A DNA stretch of 64,000 nucleotides from Brachyspira sp. SAP_772 (GTDB lineage Bacteria > Spirochaetota > Brachyspiria > Brachyspirales > Brachyspiraceae), in the NCBI RefSeq assembly GCF_009755885.1, contig NZ_VYIX01000001.1, positions 1-64,000 of the forward strand. Direction: 5' to 3'. Below are positions 44,937 to 52,726 of the stretch, one piece after another. The first letter of the stretch is position 1. Each line of letters starts with the position of its first letter. The notes beneath the pieces are model-generated. The model saw nothing but the letters and a program-made list of their open reading frames with translations. It ran no database searches and had not been told where the DNA came from. The position numbers were made by a program, and so were the translations under genes.

Positions 44937-45779
44937 TTATACTATCATTAATAATTCTCTTATCACCTTACAAGCTGTTATAGTTGATACTTTGCTATGG
45001 TCATAATCTGGAGAAAGTTCATTAACATCTAAACCTACTATATTTAAGCCTCTCATATCAAGTATAGCTTTTTGTAATTCTTTATATGTTAATCCGCCCG
45101 GTTCAGGAGTGCCTGTTCCAGAGAATATAGAGGGGTCTAATACATCAAGGTCTATAGTTATGTATACTGGTTTATCTTTTATTTTTTCTTTTGCTTCAAG
45201 CACAGTATTTGCTGAAAACTTTTCTAACACAGTATGCTTATTTGCAAAGTTATGTTCTTCTTTAGTCATAGACCTTATTCCAAATTGATATAATTCTTTT
45301 GACTTCATAATTTGGTAGCATCTTTGCATTACGCATGCATGACTTAATTCTTCTCCTAAATAATCATTTCTTAAATCAGCATGAGCATCAAATTGTATAA
45401 GCACCAAATCATTATATTTTTCTAATACAGCCTTAAATGCAGGCAATGTTACAAGATGTTCTCCGCCTATCATAAATGGTATTTTATTATTATCAGTTAT
45501 TTCTTTAGTTGTTTTGTATATTATATCAAGTGCCTTTTCTCTGTTTCCCATTGGAAGCTCTAAATCACCATAATCAAAAACTTTCAAATCTTCTAAATCT
45601 TTTTCTTGATATGGAGAGTAAGTTTCTATTCCGAAAGATTCTTGTCTTATAGACTGAGGAGCAAACCTTGTACCGGGTCTATAGCTCACCGTGCCGTCAT
45701 AGGGAGCACCGAACAAAACTATACTGCTTTCTTCAAAACTAGAATCAAGTGCCATAAATATATTAGGCTGATTATTCAT
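44937..45779 (-). CDS. speB: Agmatinase
   Basis: A 280-residue ureohydrolase that converts agmatine to putrescine and urea. The manganese ligands are in GGEH (105-108), DAHAD (131-135) and DLDVLDP (about 209-215), and the family end GLDVNELSPDYD is present. It is the last gene of the spermidine operon and overlaps the 3' end of speE by 8 bp, with its ribosome site inside speE. Together with the upstream decarboxylase it supplies putrescine. Agmatinase is favoured over arginase or formiminoglutamase because of the arginine decarboxylase in the same operon. Confidence 0.92.
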   Translation of the reverse strand: MNNQPNIFMALDSSFEESSIVLFGAPYDGTVSYRPGTRFAPQSIRQESFGIETYSPYQEKDLEDLKVFDYGDLELPMGNREKALDIIYKTTKEITDNNKIPFMIGGEHLVTLPAFKAVLEKYNDLVLIQFDAHADLRNDYLGEELSHACVMQRCYQIMKSKELYQFGIRSMTKEEHNFANKHTVLEKFSANTVLEAKEKIKDKPVYITIDLDVLDPSIFSGTGTPEPGGLTYKELQKAILDMRGLNIVGLDVNELSPDYDHSKVSTITACKVIRELLMIV

Positions 45780-46632
45780 GATGAGATTCCTCTAATAATT
45801 TTTTTACATAAGTAGGTAAAGCAAAACAGCCTTTATGTATATCTAAATTATAATATTTAGTATCTAAATTATGTTTTAGCCACTCTTCTTCTTTAAGGTC
45901 TTTTATAGGGTCTATAGTTTTTGAAGCAAATCCGAAAAGCCAATGTCCGCTTGGGTATGTTGGTATATGTACTTGATAAACTTTAGCTATATTAAAAGTT
46001 TCATATATGTTTCTATGAGCTCTTTGCATATTATAAGCATAATCGCTGTAATAAGGACATTCATGCTGATTTACTAATATTCCGTCTTTGCTTAATGCTT
46101 TATGACAATTGCCGTAAAACTCTTTTGTAAATAATCCTTCTCCCGGTCCGAATGGGTCTGTTGAATCTACTATTATTAAATCGTATTCTCCTTCTTTAGC
46201 ATCTCTTACAAATTTAAGTCCGTCTTGAAAATATAATGTAACTCTTTTATCGCTTAATCCTGAAGTTGTTGTAGGAAAATATTTTTTGCATGTTTCTACA
46301 ACTTGTTCATCTATTTCTACCATATGTATTTTTTCTATAGTTTTGTAGCGTGTTAATTCTCTTACAGTGCCTCCGTCTCCTCCGCCTATAACCAATACAT
46401 TTTTAATATTGCTATTGCTTGCCATAGGTATGTGCACTATCATGTCATGATAAATAAACTCATCTTTTTCAGTTACCATAATTAAGCCGTCTAATGTAAA
46501 GAACTTTCCAAACTCTTTTGATTCAAATACATCTATTCTCTGAAAGTTAGTTTGTGCAGAATATAATTGTTTTTCTACCTTTATTGAAAATTTTACTTCT
46601 TCAGTATGATTTTCTGTGTACCAAAGATCCAT
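45772..46632 (-). CDS. speE: Spermidine synthase
   Basis: A 286-residue aminopropyltransferase that joins putrescine and decarboxylated S-adenosylmethionine. An N-terminal beta domain begins with LWYTE and the signature loop GKFFTLDGLIMVTEKDEFIYH (about 42-62). The Rossmann domain has GGGDGGTVRE (83-92) and DSTDPFGPGEGLF (about 151-163), which carries the catalytic Asp. Length is standard. It follows the decarboxylase gene by 5 bp with a GGAGGAA ribosome site and overlaps speB. Every step from arginine and AdoMet to spermidine is thus encoded here. Confidence 0.96.
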   Translation of the reverse strand: MDLWYTENHTEEVKFSIKVEKQLYSAQTNFQRIDVFESKEFGKFFTLDGLIMVTEKDEFIYHDMIVHIPMASNSNIKNVLVIGGGDGGTVRELTRYKTIEKIHMVEIDEQVVETCKKYFPTTTSGLSDKRVTLYFQDGLKFVRDAKEGEYDLIIVDSTDPFGPGEGLFTKEFYGNCHKALSKDGILVNQHECPYYSDYAYNMQRAHRNIYETFNIAKVYQVHIPTYPSGHWLFGFASKTIDPIKDLKEEEWLKHNLDTKYYNLDIHKGCFALPTYVKKLLEESHHE

Positions 46633-46637
46633 TTTTA

Positions 46638-48089
46638 TTATTCCTCCATTATTTGTATATTATTTAATTCTATATCTTCTGTGCCTTGCATTACACAGCC
46701 TTTTTCTTTTGCATATTTTATATAAGTGATTATCTCTTCTGTAATTTCTTCACCGGGTGCTATTATAGGTATTCCCGGGGGATATGCCATAACAAATTCA
46801 GCCGAAGTTTTTCCTGCTGAATTATCCAATAACACAGAATGCTTGTTACTATAAAAAGCTTTTTGAGGACTATATTTTACTATTGGGTTAATATATTCAT
46901 GGTCAAATAAATGAGTATAGTCTTTTTTATATTTTCTTTTTAATTCTGCCAAAGCCGCAATTAAGCGTTCTAATTCAAGAGTTCTGTCGCCTACAGATAT
47001 TATAGCTAAAATGTTTCCAATATCTCCAAACTCTATTTGTATATTGTATTCATCTCTAAGCTTATCATATACCTCAATTCCAGCGAGTCCTATTTTTCTG
47101 GTATGTATGCAAAGTTTTGTATTATCAAAAGCATATACATCATTATTATTTACTATCTCTTCCCCAAAAGCATAATAATCGCCTATTTTGTTTATTTCTT
47201 TTCTAGCATAATCAGCCATATTTACAACTGTTTTAAAAATCTCTTTTCCATTAATTGCTAATTCGCTTCTTGCTATATCCAAACTGCTCATAAGTATATA
47301 ACTAGGGCTTGTAGTCATAGTGAGATTTATTATTTGTCTTACATGATTTCCATTTACATTATCATTTATTAAAAGTACAGATGATTGAGTGAGAGAGCCT
47401 CCTGTTTTGTGAAGACTTACACAGCTCATATCAGCTCCTGCCTCCATAGCAGTTATAGGAAGATTCTCCCCAAAATAAAAATGTGTTCCATGGGCTTCAT
47501 CTGCCAAAACCATCATGCCTTTTTCATGTGCCAATTTTACTATTTTCTTTAAATCAGAACATATTCCATAATAGGTTGGGTTATTAATAAATATAGCCTT
47601 AGCATCAGAGTGTTTTTCTATTGCTTTTTTTATATCTTCTACACTCATTCCAAGAGATATGCCTAATTCTTTATTAACTCCCGGATTTACATATATAGGT
47701 ATAGCCCCGCACAACACTAAAGCGTTTATAGCACTTTTATGAACATTTCTCGGAAGTATTATTTTATCTCCATGCTTACACGCAGTAAATATCATAGCCT
47801 GTACAGCTGAAGTGGTGCCTCCAACCATTAAAAAAGATTCCTTAGCCTTAAATGCTTCAGCCATTAACTCTTGAGCTTCTTTTATTATTCCTATAGGGTG
47901 AGTTGCATTATCTAAGGGCTTTGATGAATTATAATCTATATGCACGCATTTCTCTCCTAAAATATTGGCAAGAACTTTTGTGCTTTTGCCCTGTTTGTGT
48001 CCCGGAACATCAAAACTTACTATACGTTTTTTTCTGTATTTATTTAATGCATCAACAATAGGGGTTCTTTTCTGATTATTCATTGTCAT
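46638..48089 (-). CDS. Arginine decarboxylase of the Orn/Lys/Arg decarboxylase family
   Basis: A 483-residue PLP enzyme of fold type I, short form as in Bacillus SpeA/YaaO. The cofactor lysine is in SLHKTGGS (Lys228), with DEAHGTHF (about 198-205) binding the pyridine ring. DVPGHKQG near 28-35 and [13 protein letters not shown] near the end are family marks. Ornithine or lysine are possible substrates, but agmatinase in the same operon makes arginine the best choice. The start at ATG 48089 overlaps speD by 14 bp; an ATG two codons later is also possible. Confidence 0.9.
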
Positions 48090-48888
48090 ATATATTTGTT
48101 CCTGAATATATTTCTATCATCTCCTCACGAAGGTCATTCGATATTTTTAATCTCTCTTTTGGAGTAAATTCATTAACATCTTTTCCAAATAAATAATTAC
48201 TTAAATTTAATTCTTTAATTATCATCATAGTATGGAAAATATTAGAACCATATATATTAACATCATGAGCATCATACTTCTCTTGTATCTCTTCGCTTAT
48301 ATAATCTTGTATGCTTGTTATTTTGTGGTCTATAAAACACTTCTTGCCGTCTACTGTTCTAGTAAAACCTCTTACTCTGTAGTCTATAGATATTATATCA
48401 GAATCAAAACATTGAATAAGATAATTAAGAGTTTTAAGCGGAGATATTTTACCGCAGGTAGACACATCAATATCAACTCTAAATGATGATATGCTTTTGT
48501 TGGGGTGATATTCGGGGTAGGTGTGAACTGTGATATGGCTTTTATCCAAATGTGCACATACTGTTTCTTTTTCTACAAATGGGATATTTCCTTTGTTGCA
48601 TGTTTCATCTAATAAAGTATCTTTTAGAGGCTCTTCAGAAATAAGTATAGTTACGCTTGCACCTTGAGGGTCATAGTCTTGTTTTGATATGTTTAGAATA
48701 TGAGCACCTATTAAATTGGTTACATTGCATAAAATTTCTGTAAGTCTTTTAGAATTATATTGCTCATCAATATAATCTATATACTTCATTTGTTCCTGTT
48801 CCGTTTTAGCATAGCATACATCATAGATATTGAAGCTTAAACTTTTTGTGAGATTATTAAACCCATATAGTTTAATTTTGTCTGGCAT
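48076..48888 (-). CDS. speD: S-adenosylmethionine decarboxylase proenzyme
   Basis: A 270-residue class IA pyruvoyl enzyme like that of E. coli. The self-cleavage site is the Lys-Ser of [13 protein letters not shown] (Ser117 becomes the pyruvoyl group), and [11 protein letters not shown] and DYRVRGFTR follow. The product, decarboxylated AdoMet, donates the aminopropyl group to SpeE. It is the first gene of the spermidine operon, with a very strong AGGAGG ribosome site. An RNA region with promoter, folded segments and terminator lies immediately upstream and may control the operon. Confidence 0.95.
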
Positions 48889-48929
48889 AAAAATCCTCCT
48901 AACAATATTGTATAGAAGGAAATCTTAGA

Positions 48930-48988
48930 TAAAAAAATACAATTATTTTTCTAACATAAGTTTCCTTACATAAAGATAAATAATTGTA
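48930..48988 (-). terminator. Terminator/attenuator hairpin upstream of speD
   Basis: On the minus strand an 11-bp stem (TACAAUUAUUU type, 48988-48978 with 48948-48938) encloses an internal loop and an inner 7-bp helix capped by a GAAA tetraloop, and it is followed by seven U residues (48937-48931). The U-run ends 42 nt before the speD start. It either ends an upstream small RNA or acts as a leader terminator for the polyamine operon. Confidence 0.75.
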
Positions 48989-49244
48989 CTTGATTAGATC
49001 TTAACTATTTATGAATATTAGTTTATTTGAGCCTATACAGTAATTTCTACTTTTACTGCTCATGTTGATCATTCACAAGTACGTTTATACCTTATAAATA
49101 AATTAACACGATTGAATCGCAAATCGGCTTTTGACCCGGCTGTCCGTATGGCCTCTTTTCCCCTTTTTAAAGGTTAAGGTCAAAATATTTTTACCAAAAT
49201 GGATGCAATAGGAATCAAATAAACCACTCGATTTTCTATTACGA
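48989..49244 (-). ncRNA. Candidate structured RNA or leader of the speD operon
   Basis: Between a good promoter (49278-49251) and the hairpin at 48988-48930 lies about 255 nt with no convincing gene but several foldable segments, GC-richer than other spacers. An 8-bp helix (49129-49136 with 49178-49185, TTTTGACC with GGTCAAAA) closes a loop with GGCCATACGGACAGCCGG on the minus strand. A CGAT-TGA-ATCG hairpin lies near 49109, and a CAGTAA/TTACTG hairpin near 49038-49060. I could not match it to tmRNA, RNase P, SRP, 6S or a named riboswitch. A 20-codon open frame beginning MSSKSRN lies inside it without a ribosome site. Confidence 0.5.
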
Positions 49245-49250
49245 TTAGGA

Positions 49251-49278
49251 ATTATATATTTTTTTGATTTTTGTGCAA
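49251..49278 (-). promoter_or_regulatory. Promoter upstream of the speD leader/RNA
   Basis: On the minus strand TTGCAC (49278-49273) and TATAAT (49256-49251) are 16 bases apart. The predicted start is near 49244, so a transcript ending at the 48930 hairpin would be about 310 nt. Confidence 0.6.
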
Positions 49279-49399
49279 TAGTTTTTTAGTAGTTTTTGTA
49301 TATTTTTGATAAGAAAATTTATGAATTATGTAAACAAAATTTTGTGTAAATATATTTAAATAACAATCAAAAGATTTAATATTATATTTTACTTGAAAT

Positions 49400-49434
49400 A
49401 AAAACCTGACCTACATCAATAAACATAAGCCAAG
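49400..49434 (-). terminator. Second copy of the valS terminator
   Basis: This is a near copy of the valS terminator at 49760-49797, sharing 23 identical bases (49412-49434 and 49775-49797). Its stem still pairs with G-U help (49426-49434 with 49405-49413) and is followed by five U residues on the minus strand. It lies on the far side of the composite repeat, with no gene of its own to terminate. Confidence 0.65.
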
Positions 49435-49490
49435 TTTTTAATTATTCTTTTTATATATAAAAAATGTATTTTATCAAAAATAATCTTTTA

Positions 49491-49730
49491 TTATTTACGG
49501 GGACTAGCCCCCGCACCCCAGTTCTTTTACGACCGGAGGAAGTGCCCGTGGTATTGGTATAAAAGAACCAAAAGAACTGCATTTAATGAAATCTACCTTT
49601 AGGTGTATGTTAATATTATATTATATTGAGGATATATTGTAAAATATAAAGTTGTAGTATTTGCACTTTTTGGTTCTTTTGACGAAGTCCGCACCGCGAG
49701 CTGCGGGAAAAAGAACAATATAAAAATTTA
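49491..49730 (+). repeat. Composite intergenic repeat A-B
   Basis: Module A (49491-49585) begins ATTTACGGGGACTAGCCCC, has an outer GTTCTTTTA/TAAAAGAAC hairpin and ends AAAAGAACTGCATTTA. A 73-bp AT spacer follows, then module B (49659-49730), beginning TTTGCACTTTTTGGTTCTTT, with an inner CCGC/GCGG hairpin and ending GGGAAAAAGAACAATA. It is flanked by two copies of the valS terminator. The 48889-49824 gap thus contains the speD leader, this repeat and the terminators, and no gene that I can support. Confidence 0.8.
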
Positions 49731-49759
49731 GAAAATATAGTTTTTTATCTTAGTTAAAA

Positions 49760-49797
49760 TAAAAAAACTTGACTTACATCAATAAACATAAGCCAAG
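49760..49797 (-). terminator. Terminator of valS
   Basis: On the minus strand CTTGGCTTA (49797-49789) pairs with TAAGTCAAG (49776-49768) across a 12-nt loop and is followed by seven or more U residues. It is 28 bp after the valS stop codon. Confidence 0.85.
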
Positions 49798-49824
49798 CTT
49801 TTAATTATAAAATATTATTAAAAA

Positions 49825-52479
49825 TTATAAAGAAGCCAAAACTTCCTCTATACCCTTCAGTTTATCTTCAAACTCTTTTTTCTTTCTGTTTTCTGTGTCA
49901 ATAGCTTCTTGTCTAGCTTTTTTTATAAAATTTTCATTAGAAAGTTTTTTGTTTACAGCTTCCAAATCTTTTTTGTAGCCTGCCGCTTCTTTTTCTAATC
50001 TCTTCTTCTCTGCTTCTAAATCTATTATGCCAACAAGATTAACATTTATCTCTCCGCCTTCAAACACTTTAACAAATGAGCCTTTATTTCTTTCACTATC
50101 TTTTGAAGAGACTATATTTAATGACTCTGTAAGTGAAAGTGCTGATATAATATCTTTATAGCTTTCTGAAGTATTTTTGAAATAATCTGAACTATAACGA
50201 ATTATTACATCAAGTTTTTTGTTTGGAGGTAAATTAAATGATGAGCGGGAATTTCTTATTCCTGATACTATATCTTGAATTAAGTTGAAATCTTTTTCTA
50301 TATCTTCAAATATATATTTATTATTAGCTTTTGGATACTCTCTAATCATCAATGCTTTTGAATTAATATTATGTTTTGGTAAATTAGAATAAATCTCTTC
50401 TGTGATAAATGGCATAAATGGGTGAATCATAGCCATTGATTCTTCAAGTACATATAAAAGAACAGCAATAGTTTTTTCTTTCTTGCTTTCATCTTTCAAA
50501 TCGAATTTACTTATTTCTATATACCAATCGCAAAACTCATTCCAATAGAATTTATAAATTGTCTGAGAAGCTTCATCGAATCTATATTCTTTTAATTTCT
50601 GAGTAGTTGATTCAATAGCTTTCTGAAGTCTTGATAATATCCATTTGTCTTTATTTTCAAGAGTGTAGCTGTCTAAATCTTTTATATTAGCATTATCTTC
50701 AATGTTTCCAAAAATATATTTAGCACTGTTATAGATTTTATTAGCAAACTTTCCGCCCATTTTGAAAAGTTCTCTGTCAAGCCAAATATCTTGTCCGCCT
50801 AATGAAGTTATAAATGATAAAGTAAATCTAAATGCATCAGCTCCATGCTCGTCTATAATTTCTATAGGGTCAATACCATTTCCTAAACTCTTAGACATCT
50901 TCCTTCCGATTTTATCTCTTATAAGTCCATTAAGATAAACATCTTTAAAAGGCACATCATTCATAAAATGAGTACCTGCTATAATCATTCTAGCAACCCA
51001 GAAGAATAATATATCATAACCTGTAACAAGTGCAGTAGTAGGGTAGAAATATTTTAACTCTTCATTAACTTCAGGCCAGCCGAAAGTAGAAAAAGGCCAT
51101 AACCAAGAAGAAAACCAAGTATCAAGCACATCTTCATCTTGATGAATATTTTTGCTTTTACATTTACAGCATTCTGTAATATCAGTTTTTGAAACCATCA
51201 TCTCGCCGCAGTCATCGCAGTACCAAACAGGAATCCTATGTCCCCACCATAATTGTCTGCTTATACACCAATCTCTAATATCAGTCATCCAGTGATTGTA
51301 AGTGTTAATCCATCTTTCAGGATATATTTTTGTATTGCCGTCATTAACAGCCTTATATGCCTTTTCTGCTAATGGCTTCATTTTTACAAACCATTGGTCA
51401 CTATAATAAGGCTCTACAACATTATGACATCTATAACAGTGTCCTACTTGGTGCTTGATATTATCCTTTCCAACGAATGCACCTATCTCTTCAAGCTCTT
51501 TTATAATTAAATCTCTTGCTTCTTTTACAGTTTTTCCTTGATAGTTAGATGGAGTGTTTTCATTAAATGTACCGTCTGCATTAAGTATATTTATTATTTC
51601 TAAATTATGTCTTTGAGCTATAGCAAAGTCATTAGGGTCATGAGCTGGAGTAATTTTTAAAGCTCCTGTACCAAACTCTTTATCAACATAAGTATCTTTT
51701 ACAAGTTTTAATTTTCTTCCAACTATAGGAAGTATTAAAACGTCTTGTTCTGTAAGATGTGCATATCTTTCATCATCTGGGTGAACAGCAATAGCAACGT
51801 CTGCCAAAATTGTTTCAGGTCTTGTAGTAGCTATTTCAATATACTCATCTTTTCCTTCTATTTGGTATTTAACATGATATAAAGCACCAGCAACTTCTTC
51901 GTGTTCAACTTCATCATTAGCCAAAGCAGTGCCGCAGCTTGGACAATAGTTAATAAGATATTTTCCTCTATATATTAAACCCTGATTATAAAGCTCAACA
52001 AATACCTCTCTAACAGCATTGCTTAATCCCTCATCAAGAGTAAATCTCTCTCTCTCCCAATCGCATGAACATCCTATTTTCTCTAATTGCTTTACTATTA
52101 TAGAGTGATGCTCATTAGCTACTTCCCAAGTTTTTTTAACAAAAGCCTCTCTTCCTAAATCATGCTTATTTTTGCCTTCAGCTTTTAATCTTCTTTCAAC
52201 AACATTCTGAGTAGCGATTCCTGCATGGTCAGTACCCGGCATCCATAAAGTGCATTTTCCAAGCATTCTATGAAATCTTATAAGTATATCCTGAAGCGTA
52301 TTATTGAGACCATGTCCCATATGAAGTACGCCTGTAACATTTGGAGGAGGTATGACTATAGAATATGGTTCTTTATTTTTATCCATAACTGCATGAAAAA
52401 ATCCGCTAGTTTTCCAGAAATTATATAATTTGTCTTCAATGTTCTTAGGGGTGTATGGCCCTTCTAAAGTATGTTTCAT
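49825..52479 (-). CDS. valS: Valyl-tRNA synthetase
   Basis: An 884-residue class I synthetase that charges tRNA-Val. The HIGH-type motif is HMGH in PNVTGVLHMGHGLNN (about 45-59), the editing domain lies around 190-340 with TTRPETI, and KMSKS is present as GRKMSKSLGNG (about 520). A Zn-binding-like Cys pair set (CDDC, CCKCKSK) lies near 430-450. The C-terminus is the ValS coiled-coil arm rich in Lys and Glu. The ATG at 52479 is chosen over a TTG at 52503, because GGAGGAAA lies just before the ATG. It is a single gene with its own terminator. Confidence 0.96.
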   Translation of the reverse strand: MKHTLEGPYTPKNIEDKLYNFWKTSGFFHAVMDKNKEPYSIVIPPPNVTGVLHMGHGLNNTLQDILIRFHRMLGKCTLWMPGTDHAGIATQNVVERRLKAEGKNKHDLGREAFVKKTWEVANEHHSIIVKQLEKIGCSCDWERERFTLDEGLSNAVREVFVELYNQGLIYRGKYLINYCPSCGTALANDEVEHEEVAGALYHVKYQIEGKDEYIEIATTRPETILADVAIAVHPDDERYAHLTEQDVLILPIVGRKLKLVKDTYVDKEFGTGALKITPAHDPNDFAIAQRHNLEIINILNADGTFNENTPSNYQGKTVKEARDLIIKELEEIGAFVGKDNIKHQVGHCYRCHNVVEPYYSDQWFVKMKPLAEKAYKAVNDGNTKIYPERWINTYNHWMTDIRDWCISRQLWWGHRIPVWYCDDCGEMMVSKTDITECCKCKSKNIHQDEDVLDTWFSSWLWPFSTFGWPEVNEELKYFYPTTALVTGYDILFFWVARMIIAGTHFMNDVPFKDVYLNGLIRDKIGRKMSKSLGNGIDPIEIIDEHGADAFRFTLSFITSLGGQDIWLDRELFKMGGKFANKIYNSAKYIFGNIEDNANIKDLDSYTLENKDKWILSRLQKAIESTTQKLKEYRFDEASQTIYKFYWNEFCDWYIEISKFDLKDESKKEKTIAVLLYVLEESMAMIHPFMPFITEEIYSNLPKHNINSKALMIREYPKANNKYIFEDIEKDFNLIQDIVSGIRNSRSSFNLPPNKKLDVIIRYSSDYFKNTSESYKDIISALSLTESLNIVSSKDSERNKGSFVKVFEGGEINVNLVGIIDLEAEKKRLEKEAAGYKKDLEAVNKKLSNENFIKKARQEAIDTENRKKKEFEDKLKGIEEVLASL

Positions 52480-52726
52480 ATTCTTTTTCCTCCAATGAAT
52501 CAATATAATTAAATAAATATATAATAATCTTCAAAATTGATATGATATTTTATACTATATACAATATTTTTCAATTATTAATTTTATTGTGATTAAAAAA
52601 TAGTAACAAGTATGTTTATGTTAATAAAATTTTAATGGGCATAATTTAATTTTTTGATATATGTACTAAATTAAAAATAACATTGTATATAAAAACATCT
52701 AAAATTAAACTGAAACACTATATTAC

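Follow-up and report, generated by a model that had tools for sequence, protein, structure and literature searches.

The polyamine operon and its leader

The window, that is, the whole 64,000-nt stretch of Brachyspira sp. SAP_772 DNA that was analysed, carries on its minus strand four polyamine genes behind a leader, in the order speD–speA–speE–speB as assigned with NCBIfam models. speD (48076..48888) encodes an adenosylmethionine decarboxylase of the E. coli type (TIGR03331, 427 bits against a cut-off of 256). It is followed by a speA-like Orn/Lys/Arg decarboxylase gene (46638..48089; sub-cut-off NCBIfam matches to lysine, arginine and ornithine decarboxylases), by speE, encoding a polyamine aminopropyltransferase (spermidine synthase; 45772..46632; NF002010 and TIGR00417 above cut-off), and by speB, encoding an agmatinase (44937..45779; TIGR01230 above cut-off). 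The upstream neighbour, at 52503–49825, is by sequence the valyl-tRNA synthetase gene valS, and the 940-nt gap between valS and speD contains a dispersed repeat and the structured leader. The repeat (49400–49810; ..GGTTCTTTT..GGGGTGCGGGGGCTAGTCCCCG..) has 87 matching stretches in the genome. A likely valS terminator (AAACTTGGCTTATGTTTATTGATGTAGGTCAGGTTTTT-like) occurs twice, at 49802–49763 and at about 49440–49404, flanking the repeat on both sides as if duplicated.

Transcription of the leader is predicted to start near 49244 on the minus strand, from a promoter at 49251..49278 (−35 box TTGCAC at 49278–49273, 16-nt spacer, −10 box TATAAT at 49256–49251). The initial annotation had called this promoter consensus-like; its letters, its spacing and the perfect −10 box hold, but the term is generous for a −35 box that shares only three of six letters with TTGACA. 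The promoter is absent from the output of our automatic scan, which requires four of six matches at −35. Five other Brachyspira loci retain both boxes, TTGCA(C/G)...TATAAT, at an identical spacing despite diverged surroundings, and the predicted promoter is therefore probably genuine, its weak −35 box notwithstanding.

The leader ends in an intrinsic terminator (48931..48991, minus strand) with its stem at 48991–48935, a GAAA loop and seven U residues at 48937–48931. The GAAA-capped hairpin forms only the top of a 24-base-pair stem with small internal loops, worth −18.4 kcal/mol alone, and the U tract lies exactly 42 nt from the speD ATG (48888). A stable hairpin and a U tract before a start codon meet the definition of an intrinsic terminator. 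The leader length, the GAAA-capped hairpin, the seven U residues and the 42-nt gap had all been described beforehand and proved right to the base in a letter-by-letter check; the transcript from 49244 to the U tract is computed at about 313 nt, bearing out the predicted RNA product of roughly 310 nt. The 309-nt RNA folds more stably than expected from its composition (z = −5.3), with none of 100 shuffled sequences as good.

A conserved RNA with covarying helices

Read from the sequences, conservation across homologues runs over about 200 nt, shortened to 156 nt in the Brachyspira form. We built a covariance model of 200 positions, R1, from 43 homologues including the window itself. In the window it matches 49028..49183 (minus strand; 105.3 bits), its sole match at E ≤ 1, and we refer to this conserved structured RNA as the putative aptamer domain. 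In 73 sequences aligned to R1, 94.7% of cells are paired, compared with 25–43% once the partners are slid; both sides have changed in 35 of the 58 pairs, and none of 500 shuffles scored as high on any measure. Parsimony on a tree requires at least 132 two-sided changes, which involve all helices and are concentrated in P2, P4 and P9. These figures carry caveats. The tree was built from the very alignment being tested, and that alignment had been fitted to the structure. RNAalifold recovered only 22 pairs from the raw alignment; we derived the fuller structure manually from the sequences before counting its pairs, and the pairing control therefore somewhat flatters it. A structured 5′-leader aptamer supported by covariation, the first general requirement of a riboswitch, is met.

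The architecture begins with P1 (GACC/GGUC), which encloses a variable hairpin, P2, and the hairpin P3 (GGC-CAUACGGACA-GCC); a further variable hairpin, P4, follows. The long-range helix P5 (UAUUGAUU/GGUCAAUA) encloses P6 and P7, and P7 (AUAAGU/ACUUGU) in turn encloses P8 and P9. P10 generally consists of AGAGU/ACUCU and AGUAA/UUGCU with the bulge AUAUAG. The RNA of the window is a short form that lacks P6, P8 and P9 and has P7 as a simple hairpin.

In the window, P1 (49132..49182, minus strand, as are all helices here) pairs UGACC at 49182–49178 with GGUCA at 49136–49132; across homologues 98.3% of its cells are paired, and its closing pair occurs as UA, CG and GC, with at least six independent double changes. 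P3 (49138..49153) presents the strongly conserved loop CAUACGGACA, and a G–C pair in its stem is swapped to C–G in seven sequences. The CGG of this loop (49146–49144) may form a pseudoknot with the CCG (49127–49125) of a conserved GCCGA, a pairing that variation cannot test, both triplets being invariant in 72 distinct sequences. P5 (49062..49109) joins GUGUUAAU (49109–49102) to AUCAACAU (49069–49062) with one mismatch in the window, where its positions were taken from the sequence; 97–100% of its cells are paired, and it covaries. P7 (49074..49096) pairs UAUAAG (49096–49091) with the switch strand CUUGUG (49079–49074). Although 97.1% of its cells are paired, it has few double changes, is weakly tested by variation and thus rests on constancy. 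P10 (49028..49062) is formed in the window by UGAGC/GCUCA and AGUAA/UUACU with the bulge GUAUAG; its two parts are 98.0% and 95.7% paired, and AGAGU/ACUCU elsewhere has become UGAGC/GCUCA here. Taken together, P5, P7 and P10 show little change, though some.

Two further features lie at the edges of the model. A recurring box (UUUC..UGCAAAUAUUUUU or CCAGCAGAUAAUUUUU) stands immediately 5′ of P1 in Bacillota homologues, which hints that the conserved RNA begins slightly before the modelled start. In many potA leaders (L123, L129, L130, L133, L135 and L136), P10 is shortened to AGAGUACGCGUA..CUCU and lacks both the AGUAAAAGUA loop and the AUAUAG bulge, and the potA subgroup may differ in function.

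Rfam match and distribution

The 5′ domain of the RNA (49124..49182, minus strand) matches Rfam family RF02440 (SpF59_sRNA, titled ‘ldcC RNA’) at 56.9 bits, above the gathering threshold of 37.2 (E = 1.5 × 10⁻⁷). The match spans all 54 model positions (1–54), and membership by score is met. The family does not extend beyond the 5′ part of the RNA: its structure consists of a hairpin and P1, without P3, the pseudoknot candidate, P4–P10 or the expression platform. The statement in the initial annotation that no named RNA class fits therefore needs amending, though it remains apt in that RF02440 is an ‘sRNA’ of unknown function that reaches no further than this part. Neither finding named there as a refutation came about. 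Rfam returned no housekeeping RNA, and aligned relatives conserve the helices and the terminator far beyond close relatives. Only two other families, GEBRO and a nematode snoRNA, came up in this region at E ≤ 1; both score far below their cut-offs and were set aside as chance matches.

SpF59 corresponds to F59, an RNA that sequencing revealed between SP0915 and SP0916 of S. pneumoniae; it is also listed as SN20, srn235, Spd_sr49 and, by its D39V position, srf-13 (PMC3395615, PMC2887815, PMC6212727, PMC12323649). It is a discrete species of about 314–328 nt, classed as ncRNA of unknown function (PMC2887815, PMC6212727, PMC12323649), and the accessible annotations under all five names speak of sRNA or ncRNA only and propose no cis mechanism. 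In the polyamine pathway of the pneumococcus, SP_0916 serves as arginine decarboxylase, and deletion of speA reduces capsule (PMC7531197). No published account of ‘ldcC RNA’ or its structure was found in a search that left out most subscription journals and preprints; to judge from the Rfam title, someone has given the RNA this name, and an earlier description elsewhere under that name cannot be excluded. In our view, both the type (sRNA) and the extent (54 nt) of RF02440 are wrong.

The 54-nt model finds the element in 17 of 398 genomes of a Bacillota phylum sample, in 41 of 391 genomes of a class sample centred on a Clostridium and in 7 of 51 Deferribacterota genomes. The full model matches 29 of 300 genomes from the class of a Sporolactobacillus (Bacilli), comprising 22 strong matches, four streptococcus-like loci (67–90 bits) and three of another architecture. 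The four streptococcus-like loci, which are more distant, are all recognised by the full model; L163, the only one of them to be rescanned, misses the Rfam cut-off. Wherever the element occurs, in Bacillota, Spirochaetota or Deferribacterota, there is one copy per genome. A search of plasmids gave one Paenibacillus record, which was taken in as a homologue, and a search of viral contigs gave no match. A 25-bit match in another spirochaete (L173) looks like chance and was excluded.

Within Brachyspira the element was found in five of the searched genomes. speD is present in 4 of 26, and all four speD-bearing genomes carry the element, indicating that RNA and operon come and go together; the fifth element sits at a contig end, where the operon is not visible. 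Only 4–5 of the 26 genomes (G000–G024, G041) have the spermidine operon and leader, which marks the unit, within this genus, as accessory or as acquired by horizontal transfer.

The three Bacilli loci of different build (L166, on the minus strand, L167 and L168) lie upstream of speA-like genes. They have the 3′ domain (GCUUGUGAAAACGAU...GUAAGAGUAGUAAAAGUA...ACUCU) and terminators as in the main architecture, joined to a different 5′ domain (GCCAAACUUAUUGCUGUU...ACAGAUUUGA..GGGGCUUUCGCGCCC); CAUACGGACAGCC is absent from them, and no Rfam family matches them at gathering.

A predicted terminator–antiterminator switch upstream of polyamine genes

An intrinsic terminator follows the RNA within 260 nt in 70 of 73 loci, compared with 16 of 80 shuffled controls. 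The three loci without one are all from Mucispirillum (L010, L026 and L027). Two of them, L010 and L026, seem to enclose GGGAG in a short hairpin close to the start codon, and L010 has a segment GUAAGU adjoining the Shine–Dalgarno sequence; this arrangement suggests that the switch may act on translation in Mucispirillum.

Almost every terminator has CAAGY or CAGGY in its 5′ arm, a motif that can pair with xCUUGUG, which forms the 3′ side of P7. In the window, the putative antiterminator (48986..49082, minus strand) pairs GUACUUG (49082–49076) with CAAGUAC (48992–48986), a duplex of −8.9 kcal/mol that overlaps both P7 and the terminator foot. Upstream extensions of the pairing are clade-specific: AUCG-A-CUUG with CAAGCGAU, GCAG-A-CUUG with CAAGCUGU, UCACACUUG with UAGGUGUGG and, in Brachyspira, GUACUUG with CAAGUAC. 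The duplex between switch strand and terminator arm averages −9.7 kcal/mol for native arms, −4.4 kcal/mol for shuffled arms and −8.4 kcal/mol (s.d. 0.21) for arms permuted among loci, with none of 2,000 permutations as low (63 loci). This permutation test ignores relatedness among the sequences, and the automatic terminator picker took the wrong hairpin for one locus (L136). L127 does not conform to this pattern, and the pairing is weak in L003 as well as in the streptococcus-like loci, where it amounts to −3.3 to −4.7 kcal/mol.

Folding of the window RNA gives −56.9 kcal/mol with the terminator and −50.9 kcal/mol with the antiterminator forced. For transcripts ending at 48985–48980 the calculated probability of the antiterminator is 0.76; it then ranges from 0.17 to 0.70, alternating with P7, up to an end at 48960. 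Such a near-balance of antiterminator and P7, in a folding model, is what a switch would be expected to show. The second general requirement of a riboswitch, a mutually exclusive expression platform, is thus met by sequence and energy only, and the anatomy of terminator arm and switch strand is that of a putative transcription-terminating OFF riboswitch.

The third requirement, consistent association with the genes of one metabolite, is met throughout. The first downstream gene is a polyamine gene in 73 of 73 loci, encoding carboxynorspermidine synthase in 23, SpeD in 22, SpeA in 17 and PotA in 11, and nothing else. Two synthesis routes and an importer converge on spermidine, and AdoMet is used in only part of them.

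A proposed polyamine-sensing OFF switch

We propose, with a probability of roughly 70%, that the leader is a polyamine-sensing riboswitch acting as a transcriptional OFF switch. Comparison of sequences shows that the structure is conserved, that the terminator is present, that switch strand and terminator arm are complementary and coevolve, and that the RNA is linked to polyamine genes exclusively; direct binding of a small molecule to the RNA, spermidine as that molecule and the direction of control are inferred. RNA polymerase would start near 49244 and make the aptamer of about 156 nt (49183–49028) first. At low levels of spermidine or a closely related polyamine, the switch strand GUACUUGUG (49082–49074) would leave P7 and pair with CAAGUAC (48992–48986); with its foot occupied, the terminator would be weakened and speD–speA–speE–speB transcribed. 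When the polyamine is plentiful, it would bind and stabilise the aptamer, P7 (UAUAAG:CUUGUG) would keep the switch strand, and the terminator would form, stopping transcription at the U tract and leaving an RNA of about 313 nt. The OFF direction is inferred from the complementarity and from the logic of an end product shutting off its own synthesis and uptake.

The literature yielded no data on this RNA from binding, probing or reporter experiments. In S. pneumoniae D39, blocking polyamine uptake raised SPD0811, SPD0813 and SPD0815, in the operon behind the F59 homologue, 2.4–3.3-fold by qPCR, whereas DFMO lowered SPD0815 1.5-fold (PMC10887117). The former result agrees with an OFF switch; the latter does not fit simply. 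Polyamines also bind RNA unspecifically, which makes a specific site harder to argue than for other ligands.

The same cis-acting riboswitch might answer to a different ligand: putrescine, agmatine, cadaverine, decarboxylated AdoMet, MTA or AdoMet itself. AdoMet derivatives are used by speD and speE, agmatine and putrescine concern speA and speB, potA imports putrescine besides spermidine, and the proven spermidine riboswitch derives from an AdoMet aptamer (PMC10853860). We nevertheless regard another ligand as unlikely, if worth keeping in mind. Both routes, and uptake too, lead to spermidine as their shared end product, the 23 carboxynorspermidine synthase and 11 potA loci use no AdoMet, and no AdoMet riboswitch family matches. 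Since carboxynorspermidine synthase, arginine/lysine decarboxylase and the polyamine importer do not use it, AdoMet appears a poor fit to the genes, and spermidine, no ligand having been shown, appears the best. The original suggestion that the leader senses polyamines or AdoMet thus survives in its first half only. Somewhat more doubtful is a protein-dependent attenuator, in which the choice between terminator and antiterminator would fall to a protein that binds the structured leader and itself senses polyamines or nitrogen status. Its terminator/antiterminator anatomy would look alike, and covariation is strong, too, in the large leaders that ribosomal proteins bind. On the other hand, the element spans Bacillota, Spirochaetota and Deferribacterota, always in one copy per genome, and no regulator gene lies within the operon here (partner genes elsewhere were not systematically covered). 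The conserved unpaired stretches CAUACGGACA and GCCGA moreover resemble small-molecule pockets, of which strongly conserved unpaired stretches are typical.

A trans-acting sRNA of about 310 nt that merely precedes the operon, as the Rfam and pneumococcal annotations would have it, would account for the strong terminator and for the discrete RNA of about 314–328 nt detected in S. pneumoniae (PMC3395615, PMC2887815, PMC6212727, PMC12323649), but a prematurely terminating riboswitch gives an identical RNA. Such an sRNA would have no need to keep its place in front of polyamine genes at every one of 73 loci in different phyla, and coevolution between the 5′ arm of its terminator and an internal strand of the RNA would not be expected. 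We judge an independent sRNA very improbable, and a trans-acting role as the sole function unlikely, with all evidence pointing to cis control of the adjacent gene. Of the two readings that the initial annotation had left side by side, comparative evidence consequently disfavours the stand-alone sRNA, although termination can still leave behind a stable RNA of about 310 nt. It favours the riboswitch or attenuator, through polyamine genes at 73 of 73 loci, terminators at 70 of 73 and the coevolving complementarity between switch strand and 5′ arm. Ribosome-coupled attenuation through a leader peptide deserves hardly any credence: a 20-codon ATG frame, read from the sequence, does overlap P10 in the window, but it has no counterpart in other clades, where the segment reads CAAUAAGAGUAGUAAAAGUA with no ATG, and it is the pairing that is conserved, not the codons.

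Relation to known systems

We return to the leader as a proposed polyamine-sensing riboswitch. A riboswitch is a known kind of element and not categorically new, and our literature search found only one polyamine riboswitch class with convincing evidence, with 13 examples. That spermidine riboswitch (Salvail et al. 2023, PMC10853860) is a rare variant of the SAM-I aptamer with a four-stem fold and 13 known examples. Like our leader, it precedes polyamine genes (speE, speB and ldcC, in Gram-positives) and acts as a terminator/antiterminator OFF switch, and the ligand that we propose is identical; our RNA differs in having another architecture and in being far more widespread. SAM families gave no match at E ≤ 1 in 48850–49850 and none at gathering in 12 homologous loci, and the leader RNA matches no riboswitch model. 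With no SAM-class model matching, membership of the SAM-I-variant class and of other AdoMet riboswitch classes was rejected; the leader may work like the SAM-I-variant class but is not a member of it.

RF02440 homologues precede the same kind of gene (speA/ldcC). The pneumococcal F59 RNA, the namesake of that family, resembles our leader in length (about 314–328 nt) and in position upstream of SP_0916 (speA) and the polyamine operon. If our interpretation is true, this pneumococcal ‘sRNA of unknown function’ upstream of speA becomes the likely sensor of its polyamine operon. The analysis also shows that Rfam entry RF02440 represents a mere fragment of the real RNA. The ABC-leader of potABCD in Pasteurellaceae (Naville and Gautheret 2010, PMC2965389) is likewise a predicted attenuator upstream of a spermidine/putrescine importer, but was reported from two Gammaproteobacteria.

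The leader is therefore a candidate second polyamine-riboswitch architecture filed under an sRNA label. On balance we lean towards a second, structurally independent natural class of polyamine (spermidine) riboswitch, typically of about 200 nt. In the samples searched it would occur in Spirochaetota, Deferribacterota, about 4% of Bacillota-phylum genomes and about 10% of genomes in the Clostridium-centred class and in Bacilli. It would use terminators and, in Mucispirillum, perhaps Shine–Dalgarno sequences as platforms, and have in L166–L168 a sister architecture that keeps the switching 3′ domain and replaces the 5′ domain. The discoverers of the SAM-I-variant class expected additional classes of polyamine riboswitch (PMC10853860), and a conserved leader on four types of polyamine gene in several phyla, with a readable switch, makes that expectation directly testable.
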